Assembly: GCA_014804655.1 (NCBI GenBank)
Contig: JAAUZK010000010.1
Location: 64,502-128,501, forward strand
DNA: 64,000 bases
From: Lachnospiraceae bacterium
GTDB taxonomy: Bacteria; Bacillota; Clostridia; Lachnospirales; Lachnospiraceae
Direction of reading: 5' to 3'
Position numbers and translations under genes: made by a program
Shown: positions 29,906 to 60,362 of the stretch, piece after piece
Position numbering within the stretch: the first letter of the stretch is position 1
How the letters are laid out: each line of letters begins with the position of its first letter
The notes under the pieces: model-generated
Seen by the model: only the letters and a program-made list of their open reading frames with translations
Database searches by the model: none
What the model was told of the DNA's origin: nothing

Positions 29906-30033
29906 AGCGTGGGAGTGCGAATTTTTGGACTTGCATGACAAGCCACGAACTTGGACACAAAATACGAAATAACATTTATTGAACTGCGCCATTACACATG
30001 ATAGTATTAGGATAGAGAGGAGCAGTGACGGAT

Positions 30034-30573: not shown

Positions 30574-30574
30574 C

Positions 30575-34314: not shown

Positions 34315-34359
34315 ACGAAAACACTTATTCTTTATGTCGAATAAGTGTTTTCGTTTATA
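34310..34359 (+). terminator. Perfect 21-bp hairpin before the zincin gene (attenuator or terminator)
   Basis: 34310-34330 (TATAAACGAAAACACTTATTC) is listed here by its ends only as arm one; arm two, 34339-34359, is its exact reverse complement, with an 8-nt loop. The stem is AT-rich and lacks a separate T run, but its own 3' arm is T-rich. It overlaps the stop codon of the small ORF. Confidence 0.6.
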
Positions 34360-34405
34360 CATTATTTATGTGTTAAATAATTGTAGGATAGGGGATAAAA
34401 CAACA

Positions 34406-38526: not shown

Positions 38527-38685
38527 GTGTTACAATAGCGTGAGAAGAATTTTCGAACTTGCAAGGCAGGTCATGAGTATGCTAGAGTGGTAGGCCAATG
38601 CTGTTATAATAATATATGCGGTGACAAAACAGAGTAAAAGAAGAACCAATAAAGTGACTTAATAATGATTGGAGTGCGGCGATCT

Positions 38686-40888: not shown

Positions 40889-41021
40889 AAAATTAAGTTT
40901 TGCTTGATTGCGCGCTTTGCCTGTGGCAAACTTGAAGCTTGCCAAAAAGGGAAACATGGGTATAAACATAAAAAGAGATTGAACATGTGCACAACAAAAG
41001 GTGTACAGAAATGAGGAGAAC

Positions 41022-41921: not shown

Positions 41922-41923
41922 TT

Positions 41924-45099: not shown

Positions 45100-46143
45100 A
45101 TGAGAAGAAATGAAGCAAACGTTTGCTTAAAAAGCATAGTGACTGCGGTCATTATTCTGTCGATGAGTATTACAGGGTGCGGCAGTGGGGCGAATTCTGT
45201 GGCAGGAGGAGATGGGGAAATAGAGCTTTTAAATGTCTCCTACGATCCGACGCGGGAGTTTTATGCGGAGTACAATAAATTATTTAGCGAATATTGGAAA
45301 GAGAAGAGCGGGCAGGAAGTAATCGTGACACAGTCGCATGGTGGCTCCGGTTCTCAGGCACGCTCCGTGATTGAAGGAAATGAAGCAGATGTAGTCACGT
45401 TGGCGCTGGCGCATGATGTGACAGCGATTGAGGAGGCAGGACTGATTGAGTCCGGATGGCTCGGAGAATTCGACAAGGATAGTTCGCCCTATACATCTAC
45501 GATTGTATTTCTGGTACATAAGGGAAATGAGAAAAACATACAGGATTGGGATGATCTGGTAAAAGAAGGGATTGAGGTCATTACGCCTAATCCTAAAACA
45601 TCAGGAGGCGCATGTTGGAATTTCCTGGCGGCGTGGGCGTATCAGCAGGAGCGTGACGGCAATGACGAGGAACAGACGAAAGAATTTATGAGGAAATTGT
45701 ATCAGAATGTACTCGTGTTAGATTCCGGTGCGAGAGGGGCAACCAATACCTTTGTGGAAAACGGACAGGGAGATATACTGATTGCTTGGGAGAATGAGGC
45801 GTATTTGGCGATGGAAGAGTATCCTGATCAGTATGAGATCGTTACACCCAGCGTCAGCATTTTGGCACAGCCTTCGGTAGCTGTGGTGGATCGTAATGTG
45901 GAAGATCACGGCACGAGGGAGGCTGCGGAGGCATATCTTGAATATTTATACAGTGATGAGGCGCAGAGGCTGGCGGGAGAGAATTATTATCGCCCGACAC
46001 AAGAGGAAATTTTGCGGGAGTTTTCGGATCAGTTTAATTTAGAAATGAATCTTATTACGATTGACGACTTCGGCGGATGGGATGAAGCATACCGGGCTTA
46101 TTTTGATGACGGGGCAATCTTTGATCAGATTTATGATGAATGA
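45100..46143 (+). CDS. Sulfate ABC transporter substrate-binding lipoprotein
   Basis: A 347-residue extracellular lipoprotein that captures sulfate (or thiosulfate). The signal peptide ends in the lipobox 'SITGC' (Cys at residue about 28). The mature part shows the Sbp/CysP signatures 'LLNVSYDPTREFYAEYNKLF', 'VTQSHGGSGSQARSVIEG', 'ADVVTLALAHDVTAIEEAG' and 'TPNPKTSGGACWNFLAAWAY'. ATG 45100 follows GAGGAGG. A second LacI operator lies at codons 6-9, which is unusual. It starts an operon with two permeases and an ATPase. Confidence 0.94.
   Translation: MRRNEANVCLKSIVTAVIILSMSITGCGSGANSVAGGDGEIELLNVSYDPTREFYAEYNKLFSEYWKEKSGQEVIVTQSHGGSGSQARSVIEGNEADVVTLALAHDVTAIEEAGLIESGWLGEFDKDSSPYTSTIVFLVHKGNEKNIQDWDDLVKEGIEVITPNPKTSGGACWNFLAAWAYQQERDGNDEEQTKEFMRKLYQNVLVLDSGARGATNTFVENGQGDILIAWENEAYLAMEEYPDQYEIVTPSVSILAQPSVAVVDRNVEDHGTREAAEAYLEYLYSDEAQRLAGENYYRPTQEEILREFSDQFNLEMNLITIDDFGGWDEAYRAYFDDGAIFDQIYDE
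45115..45126. promoter_or_regulatory. LacI-type operator O2, inside the sulfate-binding-protein gene
   Basis: A second exact GCAAACGTTTGC (14-bp palindrome with its flanks, 45114-45127), within codons 6-9. Centre-to-centre distance to O1 is 184 bp, a spacing that would allow DNA looping by a tetrameric or paired repressor, or act as a roadblock. Confidence 0.8.
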
Positions 46144-46156
46144 AGGAGTAATGGCT

Positions 46157-47008
46157 ATGGAGCAACAGATTGTTAAGATTAAGAATAAGCGTGGCGTAAG
46201 AGTGATTCCGGGATTTGGTCTCTCGATGGGAGTGACGCTTTCGATGCTGAGTGTGCTTGTACTGATTCCACTGATCTCCATTTTCATCAGTGCCGGACAG
46301 CTTGACCTTCATGAATTTATAGCTGCGGTTACCTCTCGCCAGATTGTTTCCGGATATGTTGTCAGCTTTTCCTGTGCTTTTTTTGCGGCGCTTACGAATG
46401 CTGTGTTTGGGATGATTCTCGCGTGGGTGTTGGTGAGATATGACTTTCCGGGGAAACGGTTTATGGATGGAATCATTGAACTGCCTTTTGCGTTACCTAC
46501 CGCAGTGGCGGGAATTTCCTTGACGTATCTTTACTCGGATCAGGGGTGGATCGGTTCCATATTTGATAAGGCGGGAATAAAAATTGCATATACTCGAATT
46601 GGTATTACGATTGCTATGGTTTTTGTCGGGATTCCTTTTGTGGTAAGAACGGTGCAGCCGGTGTTAGCAAAATTGGACAGGCAGTATGAAGAGGCGGCGA
46701 TGATGCTCGGAGCCGGTCGTATGCGTATTTTCTGCAAAGTAATTCTGCCGGAGCTATTTCCTGCACTGCTCGCGGGATTCGGTCTTGCTTTTGCCAGAGG
46801 GATCGGCGAGTATGGGAGTGTTGTGTTTATTGCCGGTAATATTCCCTATAAGACGCAGATTGCGCCTCTGCTTATTATGACCAAGCTGGAACAGTATAAA
46901 TATGCGGATGCTACTGCGATCGCGTTGGTTTTGCTGTTGATTTCTTTTGTGCTGATGTTCTTGATTAATTCGATACAGATCTATATGCAGAAGTTTGGTA
47001 AGGCATGA
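46157..47008 (+). CDS. cysT: Sulfate ABC transporter permease CysT (CysU)
   Basis: A 283-residue inner-membrane permease with six predicted helices. The EAA loop that contacts the ATPase is seen in 'LDRQYEEAAMMLGAGRMRIFCKVILPELFPALLAGFGLAFARGIGEYG'-type order near residues 185-230, and the family motif 'ELPFALPTAVAGI' near 112. ATG 46157 is 8 nt after AAGGAG (46143-46148) and is preferred over ATG 46151. It begins 13 bp after the binding-protein gene. Confidence 0.93.
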   Translation: MEQQIVKIKNKRGVRVIPGFGLSMGVTLSMLSVLVLIPLISIFISAGQLDLHEFIAAVTSRQIVSGYVVSFSCAFFAALTNAVFGMILAWVLVRYDFPGKRFMDGIIELPFALPTAVAGISLTYLYSDQGWIGSIFDKAGIKIAYTRIGITIAMVFVGIPFVVRTVQPVLAKLDRQYEEAAMMLGAGRMRIFCKVILPELFPALLAGFGLAFARGIGEYGSVVFIAGNIPYKTQIAPLLIMTKLEQYKYADATAIALVLLLISFVLMFLINSIQIYMQKFGKA

Positions 47009-47047
47009 GGATTCGCAGCAGTTTATATGGATGAATGAGGAGTGAAT

Positions 47048-47941
47048 ATGGCTGAAAAGTTAAGCGAAACATACGAACAGGATATTATAGGGGATGGTAT
47101 TAATTCAATACAGAAGGTGATTGAACCGCATGGGGAAGAATCGGGGCGAACAACCCGATTTATATTGATTGGGATTTCAATGTTATTCCTATTTGTGATG
47201 TTGGTTTTGCCTCTGATCGTGGTGATCGTGAAGGCGTTGGGTGATGGGTGGCAGGCGTACATAAAAGCAATATCAGATCGGTATACCGTGAAAGCGTTAG
47301 AACTAACGCTGTTTGCAACAGTGTGCGCGGTGGCAGTCAATACGATATTCGGAGTGTTTGCGTCTTTTCTTTTATCCAAGTTTTATTTTAGAGGGCGGCA
47401 GGTGTTGGCGACTCTGATTGATATTCCGTTCTCTATCTCCCCGGTGATTGCAGGACTGGTATTTATTTTAACTTTTGGTAATATCGGATGGATGGGGAGC
47501 TTCTTGAAGGCTCATAATATTAAAATTGTGTTTGCTGTGCCGGGGGTTATTCTGGCGACGATTTTCGTTACATTCCCGTTTGTTTTCCGTGAGCTGTTCC
47601 CGGTTATGAATGCACAGGGCAAAGATGAGGAGGAAGCGGCGGCTCTGATGGGTGCCGGTGGATTTACGATTTTTCGGAGGATAACGTTTCCGCATATTAA
47701 GTGGGCACTGTTGTATGGAATCGTCCTGTGTACCGCGCGTGCGATGGGAGAGTTTGGGGCGGTGTCCGTTATCTCCGGACACTTAAGGGGAAAAACGAAT
47801 ACGCTGCCGCTCCATGTAGAAATTCTGTATAACGAGTTTAATACAACGGCGGCATTTGCAGTCTCATCTATTCTGGTCATACTGGCAGTGGTGATTTTGA
47901 TTATAAGAAGTCTGATAGAGCGTAAGCGTAAATTATTGTAA
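47048..47941 (+). CDS. cysW: Sulfate ABC transporter permease CysW
   Basis: A 297-residue partner permease. It has a cytoplasmic N-terminus of about 35 residues, then six helices; motifs are 'DIPFSISPVIAGLVFILTFG', 'PFVFRELFPVMNAQGKDEEEAAALMGA' (EAA loop) and 'GEFGAVSVISGHLRGKTNTLPLHVEILY', which is the CysW signature. ATG 47048 is 6 nt after GAGGAG; a GTG at 47042 is too close. It forms the channel with CysT. Confidence 0.93.
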   Translation: MAEKLSETYEQDIIGDGINSIQKVIEPHGEESGRTTRFILIGISMLFLFVMLVLPLIVVIVKALGDGWQAYIKAISDRYTVKALELTLFATVCAVAVNTIFGVFASFLLSKFYFRGRQVLATLIDIPFSISPVIAGLVFILTFGNIGWMGSFLKAHNIKIVFAVPGVILATIFVTFPFVFRELFPVMNAQGKDEEEAAALMGAGGFTIFRRITFPHIKWALLYGIVLCTARAMGEFGAVSVISGHLRGKTNTLPLHVEILYNEFNTTAAFAVSSILVILAVVILIIRSLIERKRKLL

Positions 47942-48004
47942 AAATGTTTGGGGATATGAAAACGGTATGACGGGAAAATAATAAGGCGTGAAAGAGGAAA
48001 ATTT

Positions 48005-48748
48005 ATGTATGTGGAAATGAGACAGATCAATAAAACTTTTGATGGCTTTCAAGCTTCTAAAGATGTGAGTTTCGGTGTAGAAAAAGGACATCTGGCGGCA
48101 TTGCTCGGTCCCAGTGGGAGCGGTAAAACAACCATTTTAAGAATGATTGCCGGATTGGACAGGCCGGATTCGGGCGATATCATGATCAACGGAAGCAGAG
48201 TGAATGATATACCGGGAAGTAAGCGCGGGATCGGATTTGTTTTTCAGAATTACGCGTTGTTCCGCTATATGACGGTAGCGGACAACATTGCATTTGGTTT
48301 GGAAGTGCAGAAAAAAAGCAAGGCGGAGATCAAGAATCGGGTGGAGGAACTATTGGAATTGGTTTCTATGCAGGAACTTGGTAAGAGATATCCCCATCAG
48401 CTATCCGGAGGACAAAGGCAGAGGGTAGCGTTTGCGCGAGCGCTGGCACCTGATCCGCAACTCCTTCTGTTGGATGAACCTTTTGCGGCGATTGACGCTA
48501 AGGTGCGGCGGGAACTGAGAACGTGGCTGAAAGAGATGATTGGAAGAGTGGGAGTTACCAGCATTTTTGTAACGCATGACCAGGAGGAAGCGGTGGAAGT
48601 CGCGGATACCGTAATTATAACTAACCAGGGCAGGATAGAGCAGGTTGGAACACCGGAAGATGTGTGTAGGCGGCCGCAGACGGAATTTGTGGAAGAGTTT
48701 ATTGATGCGGCGCGGTTTGAGGCGATGATGGCGATGGTGGGGAAATAG
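48005..48748 (+). CDS. cysA: Sulfate ABC transporter ATP-binding protein
   Basis: A 247-residue ATPase that powers sulfate uptake. It has Walker A 'LGPSGSGKTTIL', Q-loop 'FVFQNYALF', signature 'LSGGQRQRVAFARAL', Walker B 'LLLLDEPFAAID' and the H-loop 'FVTHDQEEA'. It lacks the roughly 100-residue C-terminal regulatory TOBE domain of the enterobacterial CysA (about 365 residues); short forms are common in Firmicutes. It ends the four-gene uptake operon. The glutamine-kinase-like gene follows after 44 bp, so read-through into the phosphoramidate cassette is possible. Confidence 0.93.
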   Translation: MYVEMRQINKTFDGFQASKDVSFGVEKGHLAALLGPSGSGKTTILRMIAGLDRPDSGDIMINGSRVNDIPGSKRGIGFVFQNYALFRYMTVADNIAFGLEVQKKSKAEIKNRVEELLELVSMQELGKRYPHQLSGGQRQRVAFARALAPDPQLLLLDEPFAAIDAKVRRELRTWLKEMIGRVGVTSIFVTHDQEEAVEVADTVIITNQGRIEQVGTPEDVCRRPQTEFVEEFIDAARFEAMMAMVGK

Positions 48749-48792: not shown

Positions 48793-51237
48793 GTGAATAA
48801 ATTAGGCACAAAAGCAGAAACATTGCGGAAACTTTATCAAAAGTTAAAACACGCAGAAGTATTACCGCAGTATACTTTTACTGTAGGAGAATGGGAGACT
48901 GATCCTGAACAAGTAGAAAAAAAGTTTCTGTTATTAGGTTGGAACAATGAAGTGATTGTGAGAAGTAGTTCACTTGCAGAAGATACAAGCAGTAACTCTC
49001 AGGCGGGGAAATATGAATCCATTGCCAGTGTATCCGGTGTAGAGGAATTTCGGAAGGCTGTAGAGACGGTGATTGACTCATATGATGATGACAGTAAGGA
49101 TAATCAAGTCTTGGTGCAGCCCATGCTTGCCGATGTCAGCATATGTGGTGTTGCGTTTACTTTAGACCCGAACACAATGGGAAATTATTATGTGATCAAT
49201 TATGATGATAAGGGGTCTACTTCTGCCATTACATCAGGAAATGGGACTGCAAACAAATTATACTATAAATTTAAGCAAGAAATCTGCCGGCAGGTTCTGG
49301 CGGAGGAGAAAGAAGGACAAGTTCCGAATTCAGCACATCCGGTATCTGCATCAGGGAAGCGAATTGAGCAATTATGTTTGGCGCTACAGGAGCTCGAGAA
49401 CTTTTTCGGACAGAATAATCTGGATGTAGAGTTTGCCTTTACAGAGACAAATGAGCTTTATATTTTGCAGGTAAGAGCTTTGTGTATTCAGGGAGAACCG
49501 GCAGACAGGGAGCAACAGGAGAAGCAGTTGCGGCGGATCAGAGAGACGATACGACAGGCACAGAAGAAAAAGCCGTTCTTATGTGGGGAAAAAGCGCTTT
49601 ATAGTGTTATGACTGACTGGAATCCTGCGGAAATGATCGGTATTCGCCCGAAACCGCTGGCGCTGTCTCTTTATCGCGAGATTATTACTGACAGTGTGTG
49701 GGCATATCAGCGAGATAATTATGGGTATCGTAATTTAAGAAGTTTTCCTTTGATGGTGGATTTCGGCGGATTGCCGTATATTGATGTGAGAGTGAGCTTC
49801 AATTCCTTTATTCCGGCGGAATTGGAAGAGGAACTCAGTGATAAGCTGGTAAATTATTATCTGGACCGTCTAATTGAGAATCCGGCCAAACATGATAAGG
49901 CGGAGTTTGATATTGTATTTTCCTGCTATACCTTTGATCTGCCGCAGAGGATACAAATACTCAAAGATTATGGGTTTTCGGAAGGGGAAGTCAATAAGAT
50001 AGTCGCCGCGCTCAGAGATGTGACAAATAATATTATTGATCATAAGAGCGGTTTGTGGCGTAAAGATTACGGAAAGATTCATATACTAAATAAACGGTAT
50101 GAAGAGATTATGACCAGTGACTTCAATAAGATTGAAAAAGTTTACTGGTTGCTGGAGGATTGTAAGCGTTATGGAACACTTCCTTTTGCCGGGCTGGCCA
50201 GAGCAGCATTTATTGCCGTGCAGATGTTACGATCTCTTGTGACTTGCGGGATTCTTTCGAAAGCGGATTATGAGTCATTTATGAGTGGGGTTAATTCGGT
50301 GAGCTCGGATATGAACCATGATTTTGCGGAATTGTCACGGAAAGCTTTTCTTAAGAAATATGGGCATTTGCGACCGGGTACTTATGATATTACTTCCTTA
50401 CGCTATGATGAAGCACCGGAGTTATATTTTGAAAGGAGTAGTAAGTCGGTGCGGAATATGGCGGACTTGTTTGCTAAGGAGAATGCGGAATACGAAGGTG
50501 AAAAGGCAGAGGGTGAGCATAAAGGGAAAGAAGATTTCCGGTTATCGTTGCAGCAGTTGAGCTTGTTGAAAAAACAGCTGTGTGAAAATGGATTGACTAA
50601 TGATATATTGGAACTGTTGGATTTCATTAAGACTGTCATAGAGGGGCGGGAGTACGGTAAGTTTGCATTTACCAGAAACTTAAGTATGGCACTTAGGCTG
50701 ATTGGGGAGATCGGACAGGAACAAGGAATCTCGAAAGAGGACTGTGCGTTCCTTCACATTCATGATATTTATGAACTTTACGCTTCTGCGAGGGATGTGC
50801 GGACAGGCTTTCTTCATTCCATAGAGAGAGGAAAGTGTGATTACGAAGTGACGCGGTCTATTACGCTGCCGCCTATGATTATAAGTTCAGAAGATGTGCT
50901 GCAGTTTTATTATCCGGATTCGGAACCTAATTATATCACGTCGCAACGGACAGCCGGAGAAGTCTATATCCTTGAAGCGGCAAACGGGGCAGGAGACCTG
51001 CGGGATAAGATTGTTTTGATACCCAGCGCGGATCCGGGGTATGATTGGATTTTCTCGCATCAGATCAAGGGATTTATTACGATGTTTGGGGGTGCCAATT
51101 CGCATATGGCGATTCGCGCAGGTGAACTGTCTATTCCCGCTGTGGTGGGAGTGGGCGGCAAGACCTTCGAGCGATTTAGGAATGCGCAGATGTTGGAGAT
51201 CGATGCGGGCGGAAAGCTGGTTAGAGTGTTGAAATAG
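48793..51237 (+). CDS. PEP-synthase-like kinase, probable L-glutamine kinase (Cj1418-like)
   Basis: An 814-residue protein with an N-terminal ATP-grasp domain of the PPDK/PEP-synthase type ('VIVRSSSLAEDTSSNSQAGKYESI', 'VLVQPML', 'GVAFTLDPNTMGNYYVINY', 'DVEFAFTETNELYILQVRAL') and a C-terminal phosphohistidine swivel domain ('GFITMFGGANSHMAIRAGE', catalytic H771, then 'IPAVVG'). It lacks the PEP-binding barrel of true PEP synthase. In Campylobacter jejuni the homologous layout belongs to Cj1418, which phosphorylates the amide of L-glutamine. The other genes of that pathway follow here, which makes this assignment likely. It starts with GTG 48793 after GAGGAA. Confidence 0.82.
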   Translation: MNKLGTKAETLRKLYQKLKHAEVLPQYTFTVGEWETDPEQVEKKFLLLGWNNEVIVRSSSLAEDTSSNSQAGKYESIASVSGVEEFRKAVETVIDSYDDDSKDNQVLVQPMLADVSICGVAFTLDPNTMGNYYVINYDDKGSTSAITSGNGTANKLYYKFKQEICRQVLAEEKEGQVPNSAHPVSASGKRIEQLCLALQELENFFGQNNLDVEFAFTETNELYILQVRALCIQGEPADREQQEKQLRRIRETIRQAQKKKPFLCGEKALYSVMTDWNPAEMIGIRPKPLALSLYREIITDSVWAYQRDNYGYRNLRSFPLMVDFGGLPYIDVRVSFNSFIPAELEEELSDKLVNYYLDRLIENPAKHDKAEFDIVFSCYTFDLPQRIQILKDYGFSEGEVNKIVAALRDVTNNIIDHKSGLWRKDYGKIHILNKRYEEIMTSDFNKIEKVYWLLEDCKRYGTLPFAGLARAAFIAVQMLRSLVTCGILSKADYESFMSGVNSVSSDMNHDFAELSRKAFLKKYGHLRPGTYDITSLRYDEAPELYFERSSKSVRNMADLFAKENAEYEGEKAEGEHKGKEDFRLSLQQLSLLKKQLCENGLTNDILELLDFIKTVIEGREYGKFAFTRNLSMALRLIGEIGQEQGISKEDCAFLHIHDIYELYASARDVRTGFLHSIERGKCDYEVTRSITLPPMIISSEDVLQFYYPDSEPNYITSQRTAGEVYILEAANGAGDLRDKIVLIPSADPGYDWIFSHQIKGFITMFGGANSHMAIRAGELSIPAVVGVGGKTFERFRNAQMLEIDAGGKLVRVLK

Positions 51238-51356
51238 GGAGACGAAGCTTGTATGAGGATAAACTAAAGCAATCTGTTTTATATGCCGATAATTATTATA
51301 GTCATTCAGGATGAATGAAAGTATAATGCATGGATGCGATATATGATAGAGGGATT

Positions 51357-51388
51357 AACTGTCATTGCATCGGGATGTAATGACAGTT
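51357..51388 (+). other. Inverted repeat in the leader of the methyltransferase genes
   Basis: AACTGTCATT and AATGACAGTT form a perfect 10-bp stem around a 12-nt loop, in the 217-bp gap after the kinase gene. It is followed by TTTCTG rather than a T run, so it could be a weak terminator, an attenuator or a protein-binding site. Confidence 0.4.
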
Positions 51389-51454
51389 TCTGCGTGAGTA
51401 TAGTATATGTTTTAGTGTGCTGTTCATGACAATGAAGAAAAAGGAGAGGATAAG

Positions 51455-52220
51455 ATGAAACATGGGGATTTTACAGAATTAGCAAAGTACTATGGGAACA
51501 GACCGGGATATTCTAAGGTGGTATTGGAGTGTCTAAGGAATCATGTATTTAGCATAGTGGGAGAAGGTAAAGTGGCAGATATCGGTGCCGGAACCGGAAA
51601 ATTGACGGAGAATCTGTCAGAAATTGGTCTCGGCGGGTTTGCTGTAGAGCCAAATGAGGCTATGCGTGCCGAGGCGGCAAAAAAGTGCATGGGGGGTATT
51701 CTGTTGGTCTGAAGGTTATGCAGAAACGACAGGACTTGAAGATAATTGCGTAAATTGGGCGCTCATGGGATCTTCTTTTCATTGGGCAGACAGCAAGCTG
51801 GCAGTGAAAGAGTTTCATAGGATTCTTGTTCCGGGCGGTTTCTTTACTGCGATATGGAATCCGAGGGATATCGAGAGTAGTGAATTACATCAAAGAATTG
51901 AGGAGGCTGTTTATTCGGAAGTGCCGACAATGAAAAGAGTTTCTTCCGGCAAGACGATTTCAACGGAAGAAATGAGAGAGAAACTGCTTAGTGGAGGATA
52001 TTTTAAAGATATTCTTTTTATTGAAGCTCCCCATGTGGAGACTATGACAAAAGAAAGATATATGAATACGTGGAAGTCTGTGAATGATATTCAAGTGCAG
52101 GCAGGCAAAGAAGGATTTCAAAGGATTTTAGAAAAAATAGCAAAGATTATTTCTGAATTTGATGAAATAGAGGTTCCCTATCTCTCAAGATCATGGACAG
52201 TGCAGAGTTGTAAAAGCTGA
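51455..52220 (+). pseudogene. SAM-dependent methyltransferase, frameshifted at a G6 tract
   Basis: Two overlapping frames together encode a class I methyltransferase. The first (51455-51712) carries 'VADIGAGTGKLTENLSEIG' and 'AVEPNEAMRAEAAKK'; the second takes over at about 51691 and reads 'WSEGYAETTGLEDN', 'ALMGSSFHWADS', 'ILVPGGFFTAIWNPRD' and runs to 52220. Removing one G from the six at 51691-51696 restores a 254-residue protein colinear with the intact methyltransferase that follows. It may be phase-variable, truly broken or a sequencing slip. By position it matches the Cj1419/Cj1420 methyltransferases of the MeOPN locus. Confidence 0.8.
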
Positions 52221-52302
52221 TACATGATTGAATAGAATAGGGATGTCTCTCCCTTTTTGCTGTGCGACTGTATTTGAGATAAAGCAAAAAGGGAGGAAGA
52301 TC

Positions 52303-53055
52303 ATGAAAACAGAATGGGATTACACAGAATTGGCAGAGGCATATTTAAAAAGACCGGATTATGCACAGGATGCTATTGATAAGATGTTGGGCATTTCCGG
52401 AGTAAAGAAAGGGGATCTTGCTTGTGATGTCGGAGCAGGTGCGGCGCATTTGACCTTAAAATTGGCTGAGTACGGGTTGAATGTTTGCGCGATAGAACCC
52501 AATGATGCAATGCGCGCAAATGGTATTCGCAGGACAAGTACTTTTGAAACGGTTCAGTGGTTTGAAGGCGTTGGGGAGCATACGGGAATGGAAGAAAGCA
52601 AATTTGATCTGGTGACTTTTGGTTCTTCTTTTAATGTTTGTAATCGGCAGGAAGCGCTGGAGGAAGCAAAAAGGATTCTGAAAGATGGCGGCTGGTTCGC
52701 CTGCATGTGGAATCATAGGGATCTGGACGATCCGTTGCAGAGGGAAATTGAGGATATTCTGAAAATAGAGATAGCAGATTATAATTACGGAAGCAGACGG
52801 GAAGACCAGACGGAAGTCATCAATCAGAGCGGTCTGTTTGGCGAAGTGATCTATGTGGAGGGAACTGTGCTGCATGAGATTCTTGCGGAAGATTTTATCG
52901 AAGGATGGAAGTCTCATGGGACTGTGCAGCGCCAATCAAAAGATAAGTTTGATACGATTAATGAAGAAATTCGTAAAGTAGTTGAAGCAAAGGGTGAGAA
53001 ATATATTAAGGTGCCATATACAACCAGAATATGGATGGCACAAGTGAAGGCGTAA
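52303..53055 (+). CDS. SAM-dependent methyltransferase (Cj1419/Cj1420-like position)
   Basis: A 250-residue class I methyltransferase. SAM-binding motif I is 'ACDVGAGAAHLTLKLAEYG', followed by 'AIEPNDAMRANG', 'LVTFGSSFNVCNRQ' and 'RILKDGGWFACMWNHRD'. It is a paralogue of the frameshifted gene just upstream. ATG 52303 follows GGGAGGAAG, and the protein begins 'MKTEWDYTELAEAYLKRPDYA', matching the start of the paralogue. Within the cassette it may O-methylate the phosphoramidate group; the reaction is inferred from context only. Confidence 0.85.
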   Translation: MKTEWDYTELAEAYLKRPDYAQDAIDKMLGISGVKKGDLACDVGAGAAHLTLKLAEYGLNVCAIEPNDAMRANGIRRTSTFETVQWFEGVGEHTGMEESKFDLVTFGSSFNVCNRQEALEEAKRILKDGGWFACMWNHRDLDDPLQREIEDILKIEIADYNYGSRREDQTEVINQSGLFGEVIYVEGTVLHEILAEDFIEGWKSHGTVQRQSKDKFDTINEEIRKVVEAKGEKYIKVPYTTRIWMAQVKA

Positions 53056-53064
53056 AGGAGAGAC

Positions 53065-53673
53065 ATGGTTTCTGACATGAAAATCGTACTGTATACGCAG
53101 AGAGTTGAAGTAGTGGAAAGTTATGGAGAGCGGCGTGACTGTGCTGATCAGAATATTCCACGGTTTATTGAAGCGTGTGGATATTTGCCGATTCCGCTGC
53201 CGAATATTAGGGATATTGCAGAGAAGTTGATAGAGCAAATACGGCCGTCGGGAATCATTTTGACGGGTGGAAACAGTTTAACTAAATATGGTGGAGATGC
53301 ACCGGAAAGAGATGAGGCGGAGAGGCGGATTTTAGATGTTTCTTTAGGGTGTGATATACCGGTATGCGGATTTTGCAGGGGTATGCAGGTGATCTTGGAT
53401 TACTTTGATTGTGAATTGGAGCAAGTGCAGGGACATGTGGCAGTCCATCATAAGATTTTAGGAGCATTAGGCGAATTGGAGGTAAATAGTTTTCATAATC
53501 AGGCATGTTATAGAGTAAAGGATCCGTTGGAAGTGTTGGCGCAGGCGCAGGATGGTGTAATAGAAGCGATACGACATAAGGAGAAACGCATTTTAGGAAC
53601 CATGTGGCATCCGGAACGGGAGAATCCTATTATCAATGCAGATATAAGGCTGGTAAGGGGATTGTTTGGCTGA
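53065..53673 (+). CDS. Class I glutamine amidotransferase-fold hydrolase (Cj1417-like)
   Basis: A 202-residue enzyme of the gamma-glutamyl hydrolase group. The catalytic triad is complete: nucleophile C104 in 'CGFCRGMQVI', and H182 and E184 in 'TMWHPERE'. The oxyanion strand 'GIILTGGNSL' is present. In C. jejuni Cj1417 cleaves CDP-L-glutamine to cytidine diphosphoramidate and glutamate; size, motif set and neighbours here match that enzyme. AAGGAG is 4 nt before ATG 53065, 9 bp after the methyltransferase. The next gene is the cytidylyltransferase, as in Campylobacter. Confidence 0.85.
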   Translation: MVSDMKIVLYTQRVEVVESYGERRDCADQNIPRFIEACGYLPIPLPNIRDIAEKLIEQIRPSGIILTGGNSLTKYGGDAPERDEAERRILDVSLGCDIPVCGFCRGMQVILDYFDCELEQVQGHVAVHHKILGALGELEVNSFHNQACYRVKDPLEVLAQAQDGVIEAIRHKEKRILGTMWHPERENPIINADIRLVRGLFG

Positions 53674-53717
53674 ATATAAAGAAATAGTAATAATAGTAAT
53701 GAAAAGAGGATACTACT

Positions 53718-54497
53718 ATGAAAGTGATTATTTTGGCAGCAGGGCAGGGAACCAGATTACGTCCTTTGACAGATGACAGGCCGAAGTGTATGGTGGAAGT
53801 CAACGGAAAAAGCATTATTGAAAGACAGCTTGACACGATGCGTGCTTGTGGAATTTTGGATGAGGATATTACTATTATTTGCGGATACTGTAGCAATGTG
53901 TTAAAAAATAGGTTTAAGGGTACAAAGATTCACTTCATTGTAAATGAACAGTACGGTACGACAAATATGGTGTACTCGTTGATGTGTGCAAGAGAACTGA
54001 TGGAATCGGAAGAAGATATCATTATTTCCTATGGAGATATTATTTATGGGGAGTCTGTTTTTAAGAAAATATTAGGGGCGAGAGATGACATGTCAGTCGT
54101 TGTAGATGATGGCTGGTATGGATACTGGTCCGAACGTTGTGAGAATCCGCTCGATGATGCGGAAACATTAATGTTTGATCAAGATAATTATTTGACAGAG
54201 ATTGGGCAGAAGACTACAGATCTTGCGAAAGTGCAATCCCAGTACATTGGGTTGATGCGCTTTAAGGAAGAGGGGTTGAAAGTAATGTTATCTCTGAGTA
54301 CAGAAGCTGCGAGAAGAAGTAATAATGGTGAGGCACTTTGGAGAACAACGAGGACTTATGTTAAGATGTATATGACAGACTTGTTACAGGGATTGATTGA
54401 TGAAGGGCATAAGCTGCGTGCAGTTCATATAGAAAGAGGTTGGTTCGAGATTGATGATTGTGAGGATTTGAAAGTTGTGGAAGCGAGACTGAATTAG
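53718..54497 (+). CDS. Nucleotidyltransferase, probable CTP:phosphoglutamine cytidylyltransferase (Cj1416-like)
   Basis: A 259-residue sugar-nucleotidyltransferase-fold protein. It has the NTP-binding 'ILAAGQGTRLRPLTDDRPKCMV' N-terminus, 'NEQYGTTNMVYSL', the metal-binding 'ISYGDIIYGE' and the C-terminal 'GWFEIDDCEDL'. It belongs to the group that includes phosphocholine cytidylyltransferases, and in C. jejuni Cj1416 joins CTP and L-glutamine phosphate to form CDP-L-glutamine. The motif set alone would allow other substrates; the gene order supports this one. A good AAGAGGA site precedes ATG 53718. Confidence 0.83.
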   Translation: MKVIILAAGQGTRLRPLTDDRPKCMVEVNGKSIIERQLDTMRACGILDEDITIICGYCSNVLKNRFKGTKIHFIVNEQYGTTNMVYSLMCARELMESEEDIIISYGDIIYGESVFKKILGARDDMSVVVDDGWYGYWSERCENPLDDAETLMFDQDNYLTEIGQKTTDLAKVQSQYIGLMRFKEEGLKVMLSLSTEAARRSNNGEALWRTTRTYVKMYMTDLLQGLIDEGHKLRAVHIERGWFEIDDCEDLKVVEARLN

Positions 54498-54565
54498 CGG
54501 TCTGTTGCTAGAACATGTGATGAGGAGACTTATTGTCTGAAGTTGAATTGAGAGATTGGTGACAT

Positions 54566-55075
54566 ATGGGAACAGTATATTGGATTACCGGACTTTCCGG
54601 TGCGGGTAAGACGACAATCGGAAAATTGTTCTATGTGAAGATGAAAGAAAAATATCCTAATACAGTATTTCTTGATGGGGATACACTTCGGAAGGTATTT
54701 GGAGATGATTTGGGTTATTCCAAAGAAGATCGCAAGAAGTGTGCAATACGGTATTCGAGATTGTGTGCTATGTTACAGGAACAAGGGATGAATGTTATTT
54801 GCTGTACGATATCTATGTTTGATAGTGTGAGGGAATGGAATAGACTGAATATCAATAACTACAAAGAAATATATGTCAAAGCCTCCATGGAAACTTTGCG
54901 AAGGAGGGATCAGAAGGGGCTTTACAGTGGTATTACAGAAGAAAGACAGAAAGAGGTTGTTGGTATTCACATGGATATTGAGGTGCCCAAGCAGCCAGAT
55001 TTGGTTTTGGAGAATGATGGAGAGAGGATGCCTGTGGAACAGGTAGAGAAGATATTTCGGCATTGTGTGAATTAG
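54566..55075 (+). CDS. APS-kinase-like nucleotide 3'-kinase (Cj1415-like)
   Basis: A 169-residue P-loop kinase related to CysC: Walker A 'GLSGAGKTT' (residues 9-17), 'FLDGDTLRKVFGDDLGYS', 'RYSRLCAMLQEQGMNVICCTISMF' and 'LRRRDQKGLYSG'. The window already has an APS kinase fused to CysN, so this second, diverged copy in the amidate cassette probably has another substrate. In C. jejuni Cj1415 phosphorylates the 3'-hydroxyl of cytidine diphosphoramidate, giving a PAPS-like donor. It follows the cytidylyltransferase by 68 bp, the same order as in Campylobacter. Confidence 0.84.
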   Translation: MGTVYWITGLSGAGKTTIGKLFYVKMKEKYPNTVFLDGDTLRKVFGDDLGYSKEDRKKCAIRYSRLCAMLQEQGMNVICCTISMFDSVREWNRLNINNYKEIYVKASMETLRRRDQKGLYSGITEERQKEVVGIHMDIEVPKQPDLVLENDGERMPVEQVEKIFRHCVN

Positions 55076-55133
55076 GAAATGTGAGAAGATGAAGAGAAAG
55101 TATTCTTAGGTGATTTAAGGAGAGGGAGTTAGA

Positions 55134-57626
55134 ATGATAAGATTTTGTGACAGGGAAGTTGGCTGTGAAGAGTACGCATTATTAACCAGAATAGGAATGA
55201 TAGATTATTTTGTTCCGGATCATAAAGACGATATAATTTGTGTGTATGATAATTTCGATACCATGGGATATATTGGAATGATTACATATGATTCTTTTAG
55301 GAATTCTATTGGAATTGACGGAGCCATTCGACGAGAATGTGTGATTCTTAATGCTGATATATGGAAGAATACGAGAGAATACTTTGAAAATCGATCCAAA
55401 GATGTACTTCTTCCGGTTTTGAATGAAGCTGGGGAATTAATCTGCTTTGCATATGAGGATAGTGATGCAAATCGTGAAATTCGCATGTTACAAGAGCTAC
55501 AAGAAAGCCCCGATATTTTACAGTTTACGGATATATATCCTGAATTTAGATGTGTTAAGATTTATGAGTTTAACGAATTAGCTTTCTTTTTTGCAAAATA
55601 TCTGGAGAAACTAAATATTCCGGTAGAAGTTAATGGTGAAATGTGGCAGGATTTCTTCAATGGAGTAAAATGTCAGGCTCTTGATTATGAATGTCTTACG
55701 ATATACGCAGAAGGAATTGAAGGAAAAACGCGAAAATGGAAAGAAAATTTATTAAAAAGTGTTTCTGTGGAGTTTGAGTGCATTGATAAAATATATGAGG
55801 CCAATATAAAAAATGGAAATATAAAAGATGCAGATGGTGATTTTTTGTGGCTTATAGAACGACTCAGGAATGAAAGAGAAATTGTAATTATTGGCACAGG
55901 GATTTTTTCTTTAAATGTATGTGATTTGTTATTGGCTAATGACATTGATATTTTCTGTTTTATGTCAGAAGATGAAAATCTTCGAAAATATCGAATCGTT
56001 GGGAAAAAGGTATTGTCTGACAGGGAGATTAGCAAAGGTACAAAACATCCTGTATTTTTAGAGTGCTGTGCTGAAAACAGTGCATGGGGATTTGGCGGAG
56101 TAGACGGATACGGGTACAGAGGCTATCAGAGGAATCGCAGTTTTTTCTTAGTAAAGGATTATATAGATATCCCTGTAGGGAATTTACAGAATGTGCTAAG
56201 AGGTAAAAATGTTTTTCTTCTTGGTAATCTTAATTTGTGCTATTATGTGAGTCACGCGCTTGAAGTAGTAGAAGATTGCAATATTGTCTATTGGGATTTA
56301 TTAGAAGAGAATTTAGGAAAAGATATAAGAATGGCAGTCACAGATGGGGAGGATATGAGGGACAATGATATTTGCCTTTTGATTGAACCTCAATATTATT
56401 GCTATGGGGAAGAGAGATGTCAAATCATACAAAGGAAAGAGCAATTTTTTGAGAAATTGAGGGAAAAAGGGATTAATAATATTACGGAATATTTTTCTAA
56501 TAATGAAGTTCTTATTTCTATTCAGAGATACAAAAAAGAAAAGTATACGATTCCTTGTCTAACTCCTAATAAAATAGTGCTTAATATATCGGGACATATG
56601 AGTGGGAACACGTTTATTGAAAGTATATTGGATAGCCATCATCCGGATATGCTGATGATGAATAGTGTTGCTGTCGGGCGAATATTAGGTAATATGTTCC
56701 TTATATGTGTACAATTATCTGAAGAAAAAACAGAGAATATATTACGGGAATTTTGGAAAATATATAGTGCGATAACAACGGATGAGACGACGTTACTATT
56801 TTCAAATAAGGGCATTTTTTCCCAAAAAATGGAGGAATTATTAGCACAAAAAGAAACTTTCACATCACAGGAATTATTTGTTATGATTCATATGGCGTAT
56901 GAAAAGATATTGGGAAGGGATATATCGGATGTACAAAACATGCTGTTATATCATGAACAGCGTGAAGAAAGAAATCCAGGACGAATCAATTATGAGGCGT
57001 GGCTGTGTGATGAGAAAGTAAGCGGTTATTCAATTATGTTGACAAGAAACGCATATACGCGGGTGGGATCTTTTTTTAGATTTTGCACGAAGTATGATAC
57101 GTTTTTCTATCCTAGGATAAACGCATGGTGGGAGCATATGGTTTATATAGATGAAGGTAGTAAAATACCTGATAACTGGAAGCGATTTCGGGTTAAATTT
57201 GAAACTTTAAAGACTGAACCTGTGAAGACTCTTCAAGGCATCTGTGATGAGGTGGGTCTCTCGTGGTCTGAGGATTTTCTGGAAGACATATTCATAAGAG
57301 AGAAAGAACAGTCGGCAGATGAAGTAATAAATAACTTTAATTTAAAGCCGGCATATAATCTGTATGAAGAGTTTTTTTCTGATTTCGACAGATTTCGGAT
57401 TGATATGATGTTTTCAGGTGTACAAAGACAATTTGGCTATCCCTATGTAAGGTGTCTGGATTTTTCCAGACGGCAGTTGCAGGAAATGTTTTTAAAAGAA
57501 TTTAGATTTGAGAGAAAATTAGCTTATGCAAGCGATTACTATAAGATGCGGTATCGTAAAGATTTTATAGATAGAGTAAGAGAGTGTTTACAAAAAGTTC
57601 GAAGAGACGAGTTGTATAGAATATAG
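55134..57626 (+). CDS. Large protein with C-terminal sulfotransferase-like domain
   Basis: An 830-residue protein of mixed make-up. Residues about 245-340 form a Rossmann-like nucleotide or sugar module ('IVIIGTGIFSLNVCDLLLANDIDIFCF'). From about residue 480 a sulfotransferase fold is suggested: 'LNISGHMSGNTFIESILDSHHPD' at the PAPS 5'-phosphate loop position, 'YSIMLTRNAYTRVGSFFRF', 'RFRVKFETLKTEPVKTLQGICDEVGLSW' (the classic Y/F-E-x-L..P element) and 'MFSGVQRQFGYP'. It lies 58 bp after the APS-kinase-like gene and could transfer sulfate from PAPS or phosphoramidate from a 3'-phospho-CDP donor to a glycan. GGAGAGGGAG precedes ATG 55134. The gene is AT-rich. Confidence 0.62.
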   Translation: MIRFCDREVGCEEYALLTRIGMIDYFVPDHKDDIICVYDNFDTMGYIGMITYDSFRNSIGIDGAIRRECVILNADIWKNTREYFENRSKDVLLPVLNEAGELICFAYEDSDANREIRMLQELQESPDILQFTDIYPEFRCVKIYEFNELAFFFAKYLEKLNIPVEVNGEMWQDFFNGVKCQALDYECLTIYAEGIEGKTRKWKENLLKSVSVEFECIDKIYEANIKNGNIKDADGDFLWLIERLRNEREIVIIGTGIFSLNVCDLLLANDIDIFCFMSEDENLRKYRIVGKKVLSDREISKGTKHPVFLECCAENSAWGFGGVDGYGYRGYQRNRSFFLVKDYIDIPVGNLQNVLRGKNVFLLGNLNLCYYVSHALEVVEDCNIVYWDLLEENLGKDIRMAVTDGEDMRDNDICLLIEPQYYCYGEERCQIIQRKEQFFEKLREKGINNITEYFSNNEVLISIQRYKKEKYTIPCLTPNKIVLNISGHMSGNTFIESILDSHHPDMLMMNSVAVGRILGNMFLICVQLSEEKTENILREFWKIYSAITTDETTLLFSNKGIFSQKMEELLAQKETFTSQELFVMIHMAYEKILGRDISDVQNMLLYHEQREERNPGRINYEAWLCDEKVSGYSIMLTRNAYTRVGSFFRFCTKYDTFFYPRINAWWEHMVYIDEGSKIPDNWKRFRVKFETLKTEPVKTLQGICDEVGLSWSEDFLEDIFIREKEQSADEVINNFNLKPAYNLYEEFFSDFDRFRIDMMFSGVQRQFGYPYVRCLDFSRRQLQEMFLKEFRFERKLAYASDYYKMRYRKDFIDRVRECLQKVRRDELYRI

Positions 57627-57790: not shown

Positions 57791-58891
57791 ATGCAAGAAA
57801 ATCTTTTTGTTACAAAAGCAACTATGCCCCCATACGAGGAATTTATTGAAGCAATAAAACCGTTATGGAACACACATTTGATTACCAATATGGGAAAATA
57901 CCATCAAGAATTAGAGGAAAGACTACGACAGTATCTTAAAGTACCAAAACTGTCCTTAATGGTAAATGGACATATGTCATTAGAAATGGCAATTCAGACA
58001 TTTCATTTTCCGGAAGGTGCTGAGGTTATTACTACACCATTTACATTTATTTCTACGACGCATGCGATTATCAGGAATCATTTGAAACCAGTATTTTGTG
58101 ACGTGAAATTAAGCGATGGTACAATAGACGAATCCAAAATAGAGGAGTTAATTACAGAAAAGACAGTGGCAATTGTTCCCGTACATGTTTATGGAAATGT
58201 TTGCAATATAGAGGAAATACAGAGAATTGCGCATTGTTATCATTTAAAGGTAATTTATGATGCGGCACATGCCTTTGGAGTGGAGTATAAAGGAAAAGGA
58301 ATTGGTTCATATGGCGATGCCTCCATTTTCAGTTTCCACGCGACAAAGGTTTATAATACAATTGAAGGTGGCGCAGTTACCTTTTCAGATCATAAAATAT
58401 ATGAGCAGTTATACAATCTAAAAAATTTTGGGATTCAAGGAGAAGAAATGGTAGTAGATATCGGGGCAAATGCCAAAATGAATGAAATGTCAGCAATCAT
58501 GGGATTGTGTAATCTTAAATATGTGGATGAGGCTCTTGAGGAACGAAAAAAGAGATATGAATTTTATAAAAAAAATCTTGAAGGGATAAAGGGGATTCGT
58601 CTTTTTGACAGAAATCAGGAGGCAAGTAATAATTATGCCTACTTTCCCATTTTAATTGACGACTCGTATGATAAAAGTCGGGACGAATTACATAGTGCTC
58701 TGCGAGAACACAATATTTATGCGCGGAAATATTTTTATCCATTGACTTCAGATCAAGAATGTTTTAAAAATGAATATCGAAACGCACAACTGGAATATGC
58801 AAGATGCATTTCAAAAAAAGTTTTGGTATTACCACTTTATGATACCTTGGAAATGGAAAATATGGAGCGAGTACTTGATAAAATAGTGTAA
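57791..58891 (+). CDS. DegT/DnrJ/EryC1-family sugar aminotransferase
   Basis: A 366-residue PLP enzyme that makes 4-amino or 3-amino deoxysugars from keto-sugar nucleotides. The PLP lysine is K186 in 'SFHATKVYNTIEGGAV', and 'DAAHAFG' (D157) contacts the ring nitrogen; 'TPFTFISTTHAI' and 'PVHVYGN' are family motifs. It looks like the VioA/DesI-type branch. A 164-bp AT-rich gap precedes it and AAAAGGAGA sits 6 nt before ATG 57791. It supplies an amino sugar for the glycan made by this locus. Confidence 0.92.
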   Translation: MQENLFVTKATMPPYEEFIEAIKPLWNTHLITNMGKYHQELEERLRQYLKVPKLSLMVNGHMSLEMAIQTFHFPEGAEVITTPFTFISTTHAIIRNHLKPVFCDVKLSDGTIDESKIEELITEKTVAIVPVHVYGNVCNIEEIQRIAHCYHLKVIYDAAHAFGVEYKGKGIGSYGDASIFSFHATKVYNTIEGGAVTFSDHKIYEQLYNLKNFGIQGEEMVVDIGANAKMNEMSAIMGLCNLKYVDEALEERKKRYEFYKKNLEGIKGIRLFDRNQEASNNYAYFPILIDDSYDKSRDELHSALREHNIYARKYFYPLTSDQECFKNEYRNAQLEYARCISKKVLVLPLYDTLEMENMERVLDKIV

Positions 58892-58915
58892 TCGATTTAT
58901 GATAGGGGGATTAAT

Positions 58916-59626
58916 ATGCAAGTGGGAATTATGCAGCCTTATTTTTTCCCATATATTGGATATTGGCAGCTGATATATGCAGTAGATAAGTTTGTCTTGC
59001 TTGATGATGTGAACTACATTATGCGAGGATATATTAATAGAAATAGTATTTTGTTAAATGGAAACCCATATCGATTTACGATTCCAATAAAAAAGGCATC
59101 ACAAAATAAATTGATTATGGAAACAAAATTAAATTTTAGTTTGCCGGAAAAGAGAAAGTTTTTGAAGTTATTAGATTGTGCATATAAACACGCTCCGTAT
59201 TATGATGTTGTTATGCCAATAATCGAGTATATTATTCTTAGCCCACAAGAAGATTTAACAAAATACATATATATAAGTTTGAATGAAGTTTGCAAGTATT
59301 TACAAATTCAGACAGAAATTCTTATTTCTTCACAAATAGAAAAAAATACAGACTTACACGGAGAAAACAGAATTATTGAGATTTGTAAAAAATTGCATGC
59401 AAATATTTACATTAATCCTTGTGGTGGCAGAAAATTATATTCCCAGGAGAATTTTCGTAAAGAAAATATAGAACTTTATTTTCTAGATACAATTCAAGAG
59501 TGCATTTATTATAAACAAAAAAAGGGAGAGTTTGTTTCGAACTTGTCCATATTGGATGTGATGTTTTATAATAACAGAGAAACAATTGCAAGATTTTTAG
59601 GGGAATATGAGTTGAATCAAACTTAA
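58916..59626 (+). CDS. WbqC-like family protein
   Basis: A 236-residue protein that begins with the WbqC hallmark 'IMQPYFFPYIGYWQLIYAVDKFVLLDDVNY' pattern, followed by 'RNSILLNGNPYRFTIPI'. WbqC proteins recur in O-antigen and capsule clusters, usually next to aminotransferases and acyltransferases, and are thought to take part in amino-sugar modification; the reaction is not settled here. It follows the DegT gene by 24 bp with AGGGGG before ATG 58916. Confidence 0.88.
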   Translation: MQVGIMQPYFFPYIGYWQLIYAVDKFVLLDDVNYIMRGYINRNSILLNGNPYRFTIPIKKASQNKLIMETKLNFSLPEKRKFLKLLDCAYKHAPYYDVVMPIIEYIILSPQEDLTKYIYISLNEVCKYLQIQTEILISSQIEKNTDLHGENRIIEICKKLHANIYINPCGGRKLYSQENFRKENIELYFLDTIQECIYYKQKKGEFVSNLSILDVMFYNNRETIARFLGEYELNQT

Positions 59627-59699
59627 AAAGAAGCTGTTTAGATATTACTGTAGATGATAATATGAGTATTGTAAGCGTTTGGGCGAGGAGAAGTTAGGA

Positions 59700-60335
59700 A
59701 TGTCATATATTGATATTGCGCGTCATTATGAAAATTGTTATAGAATGTATGGAGATAATAACAGAGGGGTTGATTGGCCGAATAAGGAGGATGTAGACAC
59801 CAGATATCAAGTGATATTAGATGTGATGAAATTTGATCGTAGAAATGACTTAAGAATGGGAAAATTTTCATTGTTAGATTTTGGTTGTGGATTAGGGCAT
59901 TTATATGAATATATTGAAAAAAATAATGTGCCGGTTTTATATTCTGGGTTGGATATATCACCTTTATTTACTGATAAATGTAAAGAAAAATTCCCAGATG
60001 TGGAGTTTATCACATTGGATTTGCTTGAAGATGAATATAAATTGATGAAATATTATGATTATATCGTTTTAAATGGTGTTTTTACAGAAAAACGGGACTT
60101 GGTTTATGAAGAAATGTTTGAGTATTTTAAAGAACTTATTTCTAAAATTTGGAGAAACACAAATCGCGGAATTGCATTTAATGTAATGTCTAAGGATGTG
60201 GATTGGGAGCGTGAAGACTTATTCCATTTGTCATTAAGTGCGTTAAGTGGTTTTTTGACAAAAGAAATTACAAGGAATTTTATTATAAGGAATGATTATG
60301 GATTATATGAATATATGGTGTATGTATATAAATAA
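59700..60335 (+). CDS. SAM-dependent methyltransferase
   Basis: A 211-residue class I methyltransferase: motif I 'SLLDFGCGLGHLYEYIE', then 'YSGLDISPLFTDKCKEKFP' and 'YDYIVLNGVF'. ATG 59700 is 8 nt after AGGAG; an upstream TTG at 59679 is not supported. It is AT-rich and lies between the WbqC and FkbM genes, so it probably methylates a sugar or N-acyl group of the glycan. Confidence 0.85.
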   Translation: MSYIDIARHYENCYRMYGDNNRGVDWPNKEDVDTRYQVILDVMKFDRRNDLRMGKFSLLDFGCGLGHLYEYIEKNNVPVLYSGLDISPLFTDKCKEKFPDVEFITLDLLEDEYKLMKYYDYIVLNGVFTEKRDLVYEEMFEYFKELISKIWRNTNRGIAFNVMSKDVDWEREDLFHLSLSALSGFLTKEITRNFIIRNDYGLYEYMVYVYK

Positions 60336-60362
60336 AATTTAGAAAGCAAAGGAGATTTTGAG

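Follow-up and report, generated by a model that had tools for sequence, protein, structure and literature searches.

A probable phosphoramidate donor cassette of the Campylobacter type, with a sulfotransferase-like candidate transferase, in a Lachnospiraceae genome

Introduction

The question raised by a run of genes in a Lachnospiraceae genome is whether the route to the phosphoramidate donor of Campylobacter jejuni also exists in a Gram-positive gut bacterium. The genes lie in a stretch of 64,000 nucleotides (hereafter the window; positions 64,502 to 128,501 of contig JAAUZK010000010.1, assembly GCA_014804655.1); the contig, C10, is one of the 60 that make up a genome of 4.5 Mb. Six of them, at positions 48793-55075 and all on the + strand in the open reading frame (ORF) listing of the window, had been interpreted from the letters alone as a complete cassette for capsular O-methyl phosphoramidate (the sequence-only reading). 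In C. jejuni, the products of Cj1415-Cj1418 make cytidine diphosphate (CDP)-phosphoramidate 3'-phosphate, the likely donor, and deletion of Cj1421 and Cj1422 leads to loss of the phosphoramidate group, and no function is assigned to Cj1419 and Cj1420 (PMC11800397). As of 2019, O-methyl phosphoramidate was described as so far identified in Campylobacter only (PMC6429109), and phosphoramidate without the methyl group is reported for lipopolysaccharide both in Xanthomonas campestris and in Shewanella (PMC3907429).

We consider it very likely (a probability of about 0.85) that positions 48793-57626 hold a Campylobacter-type cassette whose donor route leads to 3'-phospho-CDP-amidate, and very likely that this route is not confined to Campylobacter, because of the family scores of the enzymes, the co-occurrence of the kinase with the hydrolase, and the clustering of the genes at 80 loci. 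The evidence consists of the genes present, their family scores and catalytic residues, and the patterns in which they co-occur and are fused; the enzymes are likened to those of C. jejuni through sequence models and gene context, and the reactions are assigned by analogy.

The proposed mechanism would start with phosphorylation of L-glutamine by the kinase, after which the cytidylyltransferase would couple phosphoglutamine to cytidine triphosphate (CTP), the hydrolase would cleave glutamate off the resulting CDP-glutamine, and a kinase resembling adenylyl-sulfate (APS) kinase would add a 3'-phosphate to the cytidine diphosphoramidate, giving a CDP analogue of 3'-phosphoadenylyl sulfate (PAPS). 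This chain, proposed in the sequence-only reading, is still the interpretation that best accounts for the four core enzymes. One or both of the methyltransferases (MT1, MT2) would O-methylate the phosphoramidate, before or after 3'-phospho-CDP gives it up to a hydroxyl group on the downstream-encoded surface glycan, the latter step being predicted for the product of the seventh gene, ORF830.

The Core Enzymes

The genes follow each other as kinase, MT1 (broken), MT2, hydrolase, nucleotidyltransferase, and APS-kinase-like kinase, the order originally read, and then ORF830. The kinase scores 927.8 bits on the NCBIfam model NF004508 (cut-off 501), the runner-up model being phosphoenolpyruvate (PEP) synthase, with 74.7 bits, and rifamycin phosphotransferase reaching 51.9 bits, so that assignment to either of these latter families, which the sequence-only reading had named as the outcome that would speak against it, is rejected. 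The histidine of the swivelling domain that it had pointed out, H771, is indeed there and is invariant in eight aligned kinases, that of the window included, at identities down to 36% (alignment A1). On the same model, 951-969 bits are reached by four other cassette kinases, which come from Eubacterium sp. 14-2, Pseudomonas, Chitinibacter, and Bryobacterales. As this model is named only ‘hypothetical protein’, and the name carries no function, it is from context that we infer it to represent the Cj1418 family.

The best NCBIfam model for the hydrolase is gamma-glutamyl-CDP-amidate hydrolase (NF045546), with 128.4 bits, which falls far short of its curated cut-off (250); the model ranked second scores 49.7. 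None of the 77 genus genomes passes this cut-off, all 14 genus matches falling below it. Nevertheless, when 44 of the 75 cassette hydrolases found were scanned together with that of the window, all 45 matched NF045546 (best E-value 1e-38, the window's 3.6e-37), and the catalytic residues C104/H182/E184, correctly counted in the sequence-only reading from the start at 53065, are invariant in the 45 aligned. NF045546 is thus the nearest named family, while formal membership fails by score.

For the nucleotidyltransferase, the nearest sequence in the PDB is the CTP:phosphocholine cytidylyltransferase 1jyk (E-value 3.5e-15). The APS-kinase-like protein passes NF004041 (187.5 bits, cut-off 127) and fails TIGR00455, apsK (115.8 bits, cut-off 138.7), with the APS kinase domain of the CysNC protein encoded in the window showing the opposite pattern. 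Its consensus, over 65 sequences, contains the motif TiSmF..vr.WNR (capitals, over 90% conserved), where CysNC of the window has FISPY..DREN. At one locus (L081), the family scan finds the APS-kinase-like domain to be the N-terminal part of the kinase protein, and an N-terminal P-loop of the same kind is present in six more long kinases (L075, L088, L093, L096, L100, L106). Judged by its sequence, the protein is a member of the APS kinase family set apart from true APS kinase and linked to the glutamine kinase. Its placement in the sulfation branch was considered and rejected on the model scores, the motif, and the detection of CysD in only 3/14 kinase-bearing genus genomes.

Variants of the kinase are found elsewhere. 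At two loci (L027, 4640-7420; L028, 2834-5614), it carries an extra N-terminal domain (CTP_transf_like in L027), and a hydrolase and a nucleotidyltransferase lie beside it, with no APS-kinase-like gene seen in the 20 kb of the locus. A kinase 33% identical to that of the window is encoded at 664-3006 of MT837632.1, a 9.5-kb record from human faeces that is labelled ‘Bacteriophage sp.’ and may be of phage origin; a kinase scan of viral_contigs gave three stretches, none confirmed.

Distribution of the Cassette

At least 544 stretches in the genome collection encode relatives of the kinase, and the best-scoring 80 named loci were kept, several of them on contigs that end early and all to be read as phylogenetically non-independent. 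Near the kinase, 75 of these loci have the hydrolase, 74 the nucleotidyltransferase, 68 the APS-kinase-like gene (CDAK; one genuine APS kinase domain is part of the profile, which could therefore pick up an APS kinase), 58 a methyltransferase, 39 a sulfotransferase-like gene, and 29 a Glyphos_transf-like gene. The hosts include Lachnospiraceae, Paenibacillus, Pseudomonas, Chitinibacter, Azospirillum, Marinobacter, Nitrospina, Pirellula, spirochaetes, and Acidobacteria, and the closest kinases among the named genomes listed are from Lachnospiraceae, though records very near the window may be excluded from this list. Distribution of the kinase is patchy, as it is present in 1 of 398 phylum genomes (that of the window itself), 10 of 299 family genomes, 14 of 77 genus genomes, and none of 14 controls. 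The hydrolase is present in the same 14 genus genomes, and neither is present in the other 63. This co-occurrence, along with the clustering of the genes in distant genomes, is more than chance.

A Candidate Transferase

The six genes are all there, but in the proposed scheme they make the donor only, and the unit continues past 55075 with ORF830, the likely transferase, which the sequence-only reading missed. Taken alone, the ORF830 protein matches Sulfotransfer_3 at an E-value of 0.00092 and 20 bits, below the Pfam cut-off of 27. A profile of its domain (A4, 26 sequences) matches the protein-tyrosine sulfotransferase 5wrj (E-value 8.3e-16), strongly (44.8 bits) in the region that we take to bind the 3'-phosphate and weakly (14.4 bits) in what is presumably the 5' loop.

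Of the 77 genus genomes, 12 have ORF830 and 11 of these also have the kinase; the exception is G073, where the assembly is 64% complete and the match is partial. At the thresholds used, CysD was detected in three of the 12 and the other ATP sulfurylase in none, which leaves nine without a detected PAPS route, five of these being at least 90% complete. By Fisher's test over the 77 genomes, which are related to one another, ORF830 is associated with the kinase (p 6e-10) and not with CysD (p 0.18). In the family, the domain was found in 2 of 299 genomes, both with the kinase, and in one of them (G775) it adjoins the kinase. In two genomes (G023, G050), copies of ORF830 sit between cassette genes. 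From this context, ORF830 is probably a phosphoramidate transferase that uses the CDP analogue of PAPS.

Methyltransferases and Poly-G Tracts

Of the two methyltransferases expected from the sequence-only reading, MT2 is intact and MT1 is not one open frame. The first frame of MT1 stops after 85 residues, at 51712, the remainder lies in another frame (ORF 51654-52220), and a G6 run (51691-51696) is found at the break. Among the 22 MT1 genes inspected, representing 21 genomes (L020 and L033 are one genome), those of six genomes (G014, G010, G008, G048, L031, L034; tract loci L022, L031, L033, L034, L040, and L048) carry a G9 or G10 tract in roughly this position, five in frame and one (L031) out of frame, and those of the remaining 14 genomes have no G/C run of six or longer there. 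As to tracts of at least eight G/C, 6 of 30 lie within MT1 genes against 0.55 expected (87 loci, 1.39 Mb, eight duplicate loci removed). Since the break falls at a G-run where six relatives carry poly-G, the broken MT1 may be phase-variable; since G6 is short for a switching tract, gene decay or a mistake in the assembly may explain the window copy instead. Tracts are also present in MT2 (L050, L051), the kinase (L033, L050), and other genes; those of G9, G10, and C10 at L033 9586, L050 6507, and L050 8503, in kinase and MT2 genes, are possibly phase-variable.

MT2 is 50-64% identical to 12 aligned MT2-type cassette proteins from outside Lachnospiraceae (alignment A6), other loci having the MT1 type only, 30-35% identical to MT2. 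A methyltransferase is present at 57/68 loci that have the APS-kinase-like gene and at 1/12 loci that do not (p 7e-7, the 80 loci not being independent), and the association is maintained when only the 57 loci with 4.5 kb or more on each side are counted (44/52 versus 1/5, p 0.006). Gene context thus makes MT1 and MT2 plausible methylating enzymes, and we regard this role as the better supposition. A further likeness to C. jejuni is that methyltransferase genes accompany its donor genes, one of them, cj1420c, carrying a 9G tract (PMC4965091). Its counterpart in strain 81-176, CJJ81176_1419, annotated as ‘putative CPS methyltransferase’, has G9 as well (PMC13317227), the two genes being given the same position in PMC3907429. 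The tract location differs, at +393 in cj1420c versus approximately +218 to +283 in MT1 genes.

Weighing the Alternatives

The most sceptical explanation is that the six genes make up no pathway, being a PEP-synthase-like enzyme, an APS kinase that serves sulfation, and genes for a nucleotidyltransferase, an amidotransferase, and methyltransferases that have nothing to do with either. The five intact genes do carry generic Pfam labels, sulfation genes are adjacent, and the model names give little comfort: besides the ‘hypothetical protein’ of the kinase, both models matched by the APS-kinase-like protein bear APS kinase names, so that NF004041, itself named adenylyl-sulfate kinase, provides no support by its name. 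These names, like the low hydrolase score in the whole genus, weigh against the donor route. Such an explanation is nevertheless very improbable, given the perfect match between kinase and hydrolase in their occurrence across 77 genomes, the conservation of the gene set in many distant genomes, the fusion of the kinase with an APS-kinase-like domain, the altered APS kinase motif, and the lack of CysD in 11 of the 14 kinase-bearing genus genomes. A narrower alternative accepts the donor and makes ORF830 an ordinary PAPS-dependent sulfotransferase belonging with the cysDNC and sulfate-uptake genes, the phosphoramidate being attached by another enzyme, such as the one encoded at 38665-40041. The genes cysQ, cysD, and cysNC and those of a sulfate-type transporter are directly upstream, the genome of the window can make PAPS (CysD, CysNC), the domain profile of ORF830 matches true sulfotransferases, and Glyphos_transf-like genes, found at 29/80 loci, are partly exclusive with sulfotransferase-like genes (p 0.005, loci not independent). 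Other facts also go against ORF830 as the transferase: 3/14 kinase-bearing genus genomes (G013, G014, G026) are without it, 8/10 kinase-bearing family genomes have no sulfotransferase-like domain, a sulfotransferase-like gene is missing from 41/80 loci (with a Glyphos_transf-like gene instead in 21 of them), APS-kinase-like and sulfotransferase-like genes are not associated over the 80 loci (p 0.76), and ORF830 is approximately 27 kb from the kinase in one genome (G008) and has two of its three copies split between frames in another (G032). However, 7 of 10 CysD-bearing genus genomes are without ORF830, and the nine ORF830 genomes with no detectable PAPS route, together with the copies located between cassette genes, make an ordinary sulfotransferase unlikely. 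We therefore retain ORF830 as the probable transferase of this lineage, while other transferases must exist, because so many kinase-bearing genomes and 41 of the loci are without such a gene, and Glyphos_transf-like proteins are the obvious candidates. A simple division of the transferases by the 3'-kinase, sulfotransferase-like where it is present and Glyphos_transf-like where it is absent, is not borne out (p 0.76 for CDAK with sulfotransferase-like genes, p 0.75 for CDAK with Glyphos_transf-like genes), and a second sulfotransferase family was found in loci without the first only at L069 and L095.

Methylation is questioned on similar grounds, as the phosphoramidate could remain unmethylated in these organisms, with the methyltransferases modifying a glycan sugar instead. 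In C. jejuni, knockouts of Cj1419 and Cj1420 caused no apparent change in the capsule (PMC11800397), which counts against the proposed role and weakens the methylation step. Moreover, 22/80 loci, some on contigs ending early, have no methyltransferase of this type, and the Xanthomonas and Shewanella lipopolysaccharides mentioned above offer precedents. On the other hand, the methyltransferase tracks the APS-kinase-like gene, and the MT2 type is well conserved outside Lachnospiraceae even though the hosts, and presumably their acceptor glycans, differ widely. Modification of a sugar is, in our view, unlikely, and methylation of the phosphoramidate by MT1 or MT2 is preferred.

Relation to Known Systems and Implications

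The window shares with C. jejuni Cj1415-Cj1418 the same four types of donor-making enzymes in the same order, namely kinase, hydrolase, cytidylyltransferase, APS-kinase-like kinase. It differs in its Lachnospiraceae host, in the methyltransferases inserted between kinase and hydrolase, in the adjacent sulfation genes, and in its candidate transferase, an 830-residue sulfotransferase-like protein. Like the PAPS system (CysDNC, tyrosine sulfotransferase), the cassette would rely on a nucleotide donor phosphorylated at the 3' position, a kinase of the same family, an enzyme resembling sulfotransferases, and recycling of the CysQ type. It differs in that CDP-amidate would stand in place of APS, that the kinase motif is changed, and that the proposed transferase is present in genomes where no ATP sulfurylase was detected. 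As to recycling, a CysQ-like gene lies between the hydrolase and nucleotidyltransferase genes in Chitinibacter (L068; TIGR01331, 233.5 bits, cut-off 228.8) and in Andreprevotia (L102; Inositol_P in the Pfam scan), which fits removal of the nucleoside 3',5'-bisphosphate released by transfer. By its context, the CysQ of the window could likewise recycle 3',5'-bisphosphate by-products, cytidine 3',5'-bisphosphate among them. With X. campestris and Shewanella, the cassette would have in common a phosphoramidate on a surface glycan, there without the O-methyl (PMC3907429).

We tentatively propose a broader picture, in which phosphoramidate decoration, with a CDP analogue of PAPS at its centre, is widespread on bacterial surfaces, found on capsule-like glycans of Firmicutes and perhaps on flagellin glycans of Pseudomonas, with transferases that are, at least in this lineage, donor-switched enzymes of the sulfotransferase fold, and with a methyltransferase phase-switched by poly-G in both Lachnospiraceae and Campylobacter. 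If the prediction for the cassette is right, the Campylobacter group or a close relative of it is made by commensals of the gut and by many bacteria of the environment, so that antibodies, phages, and immune effects known from Campylobacter may encounter it in other hosts too, and a function would be gained for hundreds of kinases labelled ‘PEP-utilizing enzyme’ or ‘hypothetical protein’. ORF830 is a testable candidate for a sulfotransferase-fold enzyme moving a phosphorus-nitrogen group. We found no report of phosphoramidate in Lachnospiraceae or Firmicutes, nor of phosphoramidate on Pseudomonas flagellin or attached via a sulfotransferase, in a search that reached few subscription papers. 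A phosphoramidate-decorated glycan in a Gram-positive gut bacterium may be new ground, as first suggested, although the cassette itself is by no means peculiar to this organism.

One observation concerns Pseudomonas: at L063 (4157-7906), the cassette follows genes for FlgK and flagellin, and genes of the same two clusters precede it at L067 and other Pseudomonas loci, suggesting a flagellin glycan as the target there.

Locus Layout and Neighboring Genes

Table 1. Features of the probable phosphoramidate locus and its surroundings, in window coordinates.
Feature	Position	Strand	Basis
L-glutamine kinase-like protein, 814 residues	48793..51237	+	PPDK_N and PEP-utilisers mobile domain (Pfam), H771; NF004508
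Methyltransferase MT1, frameshifted at G6 run; possibly phase-OFF	51455..52220	+	ORFs, poly-G tracts of relatives
Methyltransferase MT2, intact; candidate phosphoramidate O-methylation enzyme	52303..53055	+	Pfam Methyltransf_11; alignment A6
Gamma-glutamyl-CDP-amidate hydrolase-like class I amidotransferase	53065..53673	+	NF045546 best model; C104/H182/E184
CTP:phosphoglutamine cytidylyltransferase-like nucleotidyltransferase	53718..54497	+	Pfam NTP_transf_3, NTP_transferase; PDB 1jyk
Cytidine diphosphoramidate kinase-like member of APS kinase family	54566..55075	+	NF004041; motif change
ORF830, proposed phosphoramidate transferase; sulfotransferase-like domain at about residues 470-800	55134..57626	+	Sulfotransfer_3, 5wrj, co-occurrence
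CysQ 3'(2'),5'-bisphosphate nucleotidase	40112..40888	+	TIGR01331, 249.5 bits (cut-off 228.8)
CysD and CysNC, PAPS synthesis	41001..43774	+	TIGR02039, 499.7 bits (cut-off 396.6); NF004035, 841.2 bits (cut-off 715)
Presumed sulfate-uptake-type ABC transporter: binding protein, two permeases, ATPase	45100..48748	+	Translations
Weakly Glyphos_transf-like protein, second candidate transferase	38665..40041	+	PF04464, 18.1 bits (below cut-off 22.1)
DegT aminotransferase, WbqC-like, methyltransferase, and presumed FkbM-like genes	57791..61475	+	Pfam: DegT, WbqC, 59679-60335

The genes upstream of the kinase include, along with those for sulfate activation and the transporter, a divergent gene that we read as a regulator. 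The transporter and the FkbM-like gene are likewise named from our reading of the translations. The genes following ORF830 are the start of a surface-glycan cluster. In the next 37 kb of the contig, beyond the window, the ORFs scanned include glycosyltransferases, a carbamoyltransferase, a Glyphos_transf protein, and, consecutively, an epimerase, an IspD-type cytidylyltransferase, and a zinc dehydrogenase. This trio would correspond to CDP-ribitol synthesis, and the acceptor would therefore be a teichoic-acid-like polymer. On the same downstream part of the contig (L109, 8500-9690), a protein of the NKWYS family shows, on visual inspection, loops like those of sulfotransferases and may be what uses PAPS at this locus.

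Further upstream in the window lie two notable gene pairs. One, at 34214-38426, consists of a 1028-residue protein with no Pfam or PADLOC match and an adjoining SIR2-like protein with a modest match to ThsA (43.8 bits), perhaps a defence pair. The other, at 30025-31342, is a pair of overlapping genes, the first of which reads as phosphoribosyltransferase-like and the second of which matches the DprA-like ShosA (PADLOC, E-value 4.3e-61), making a ShosTA-type pair likely.

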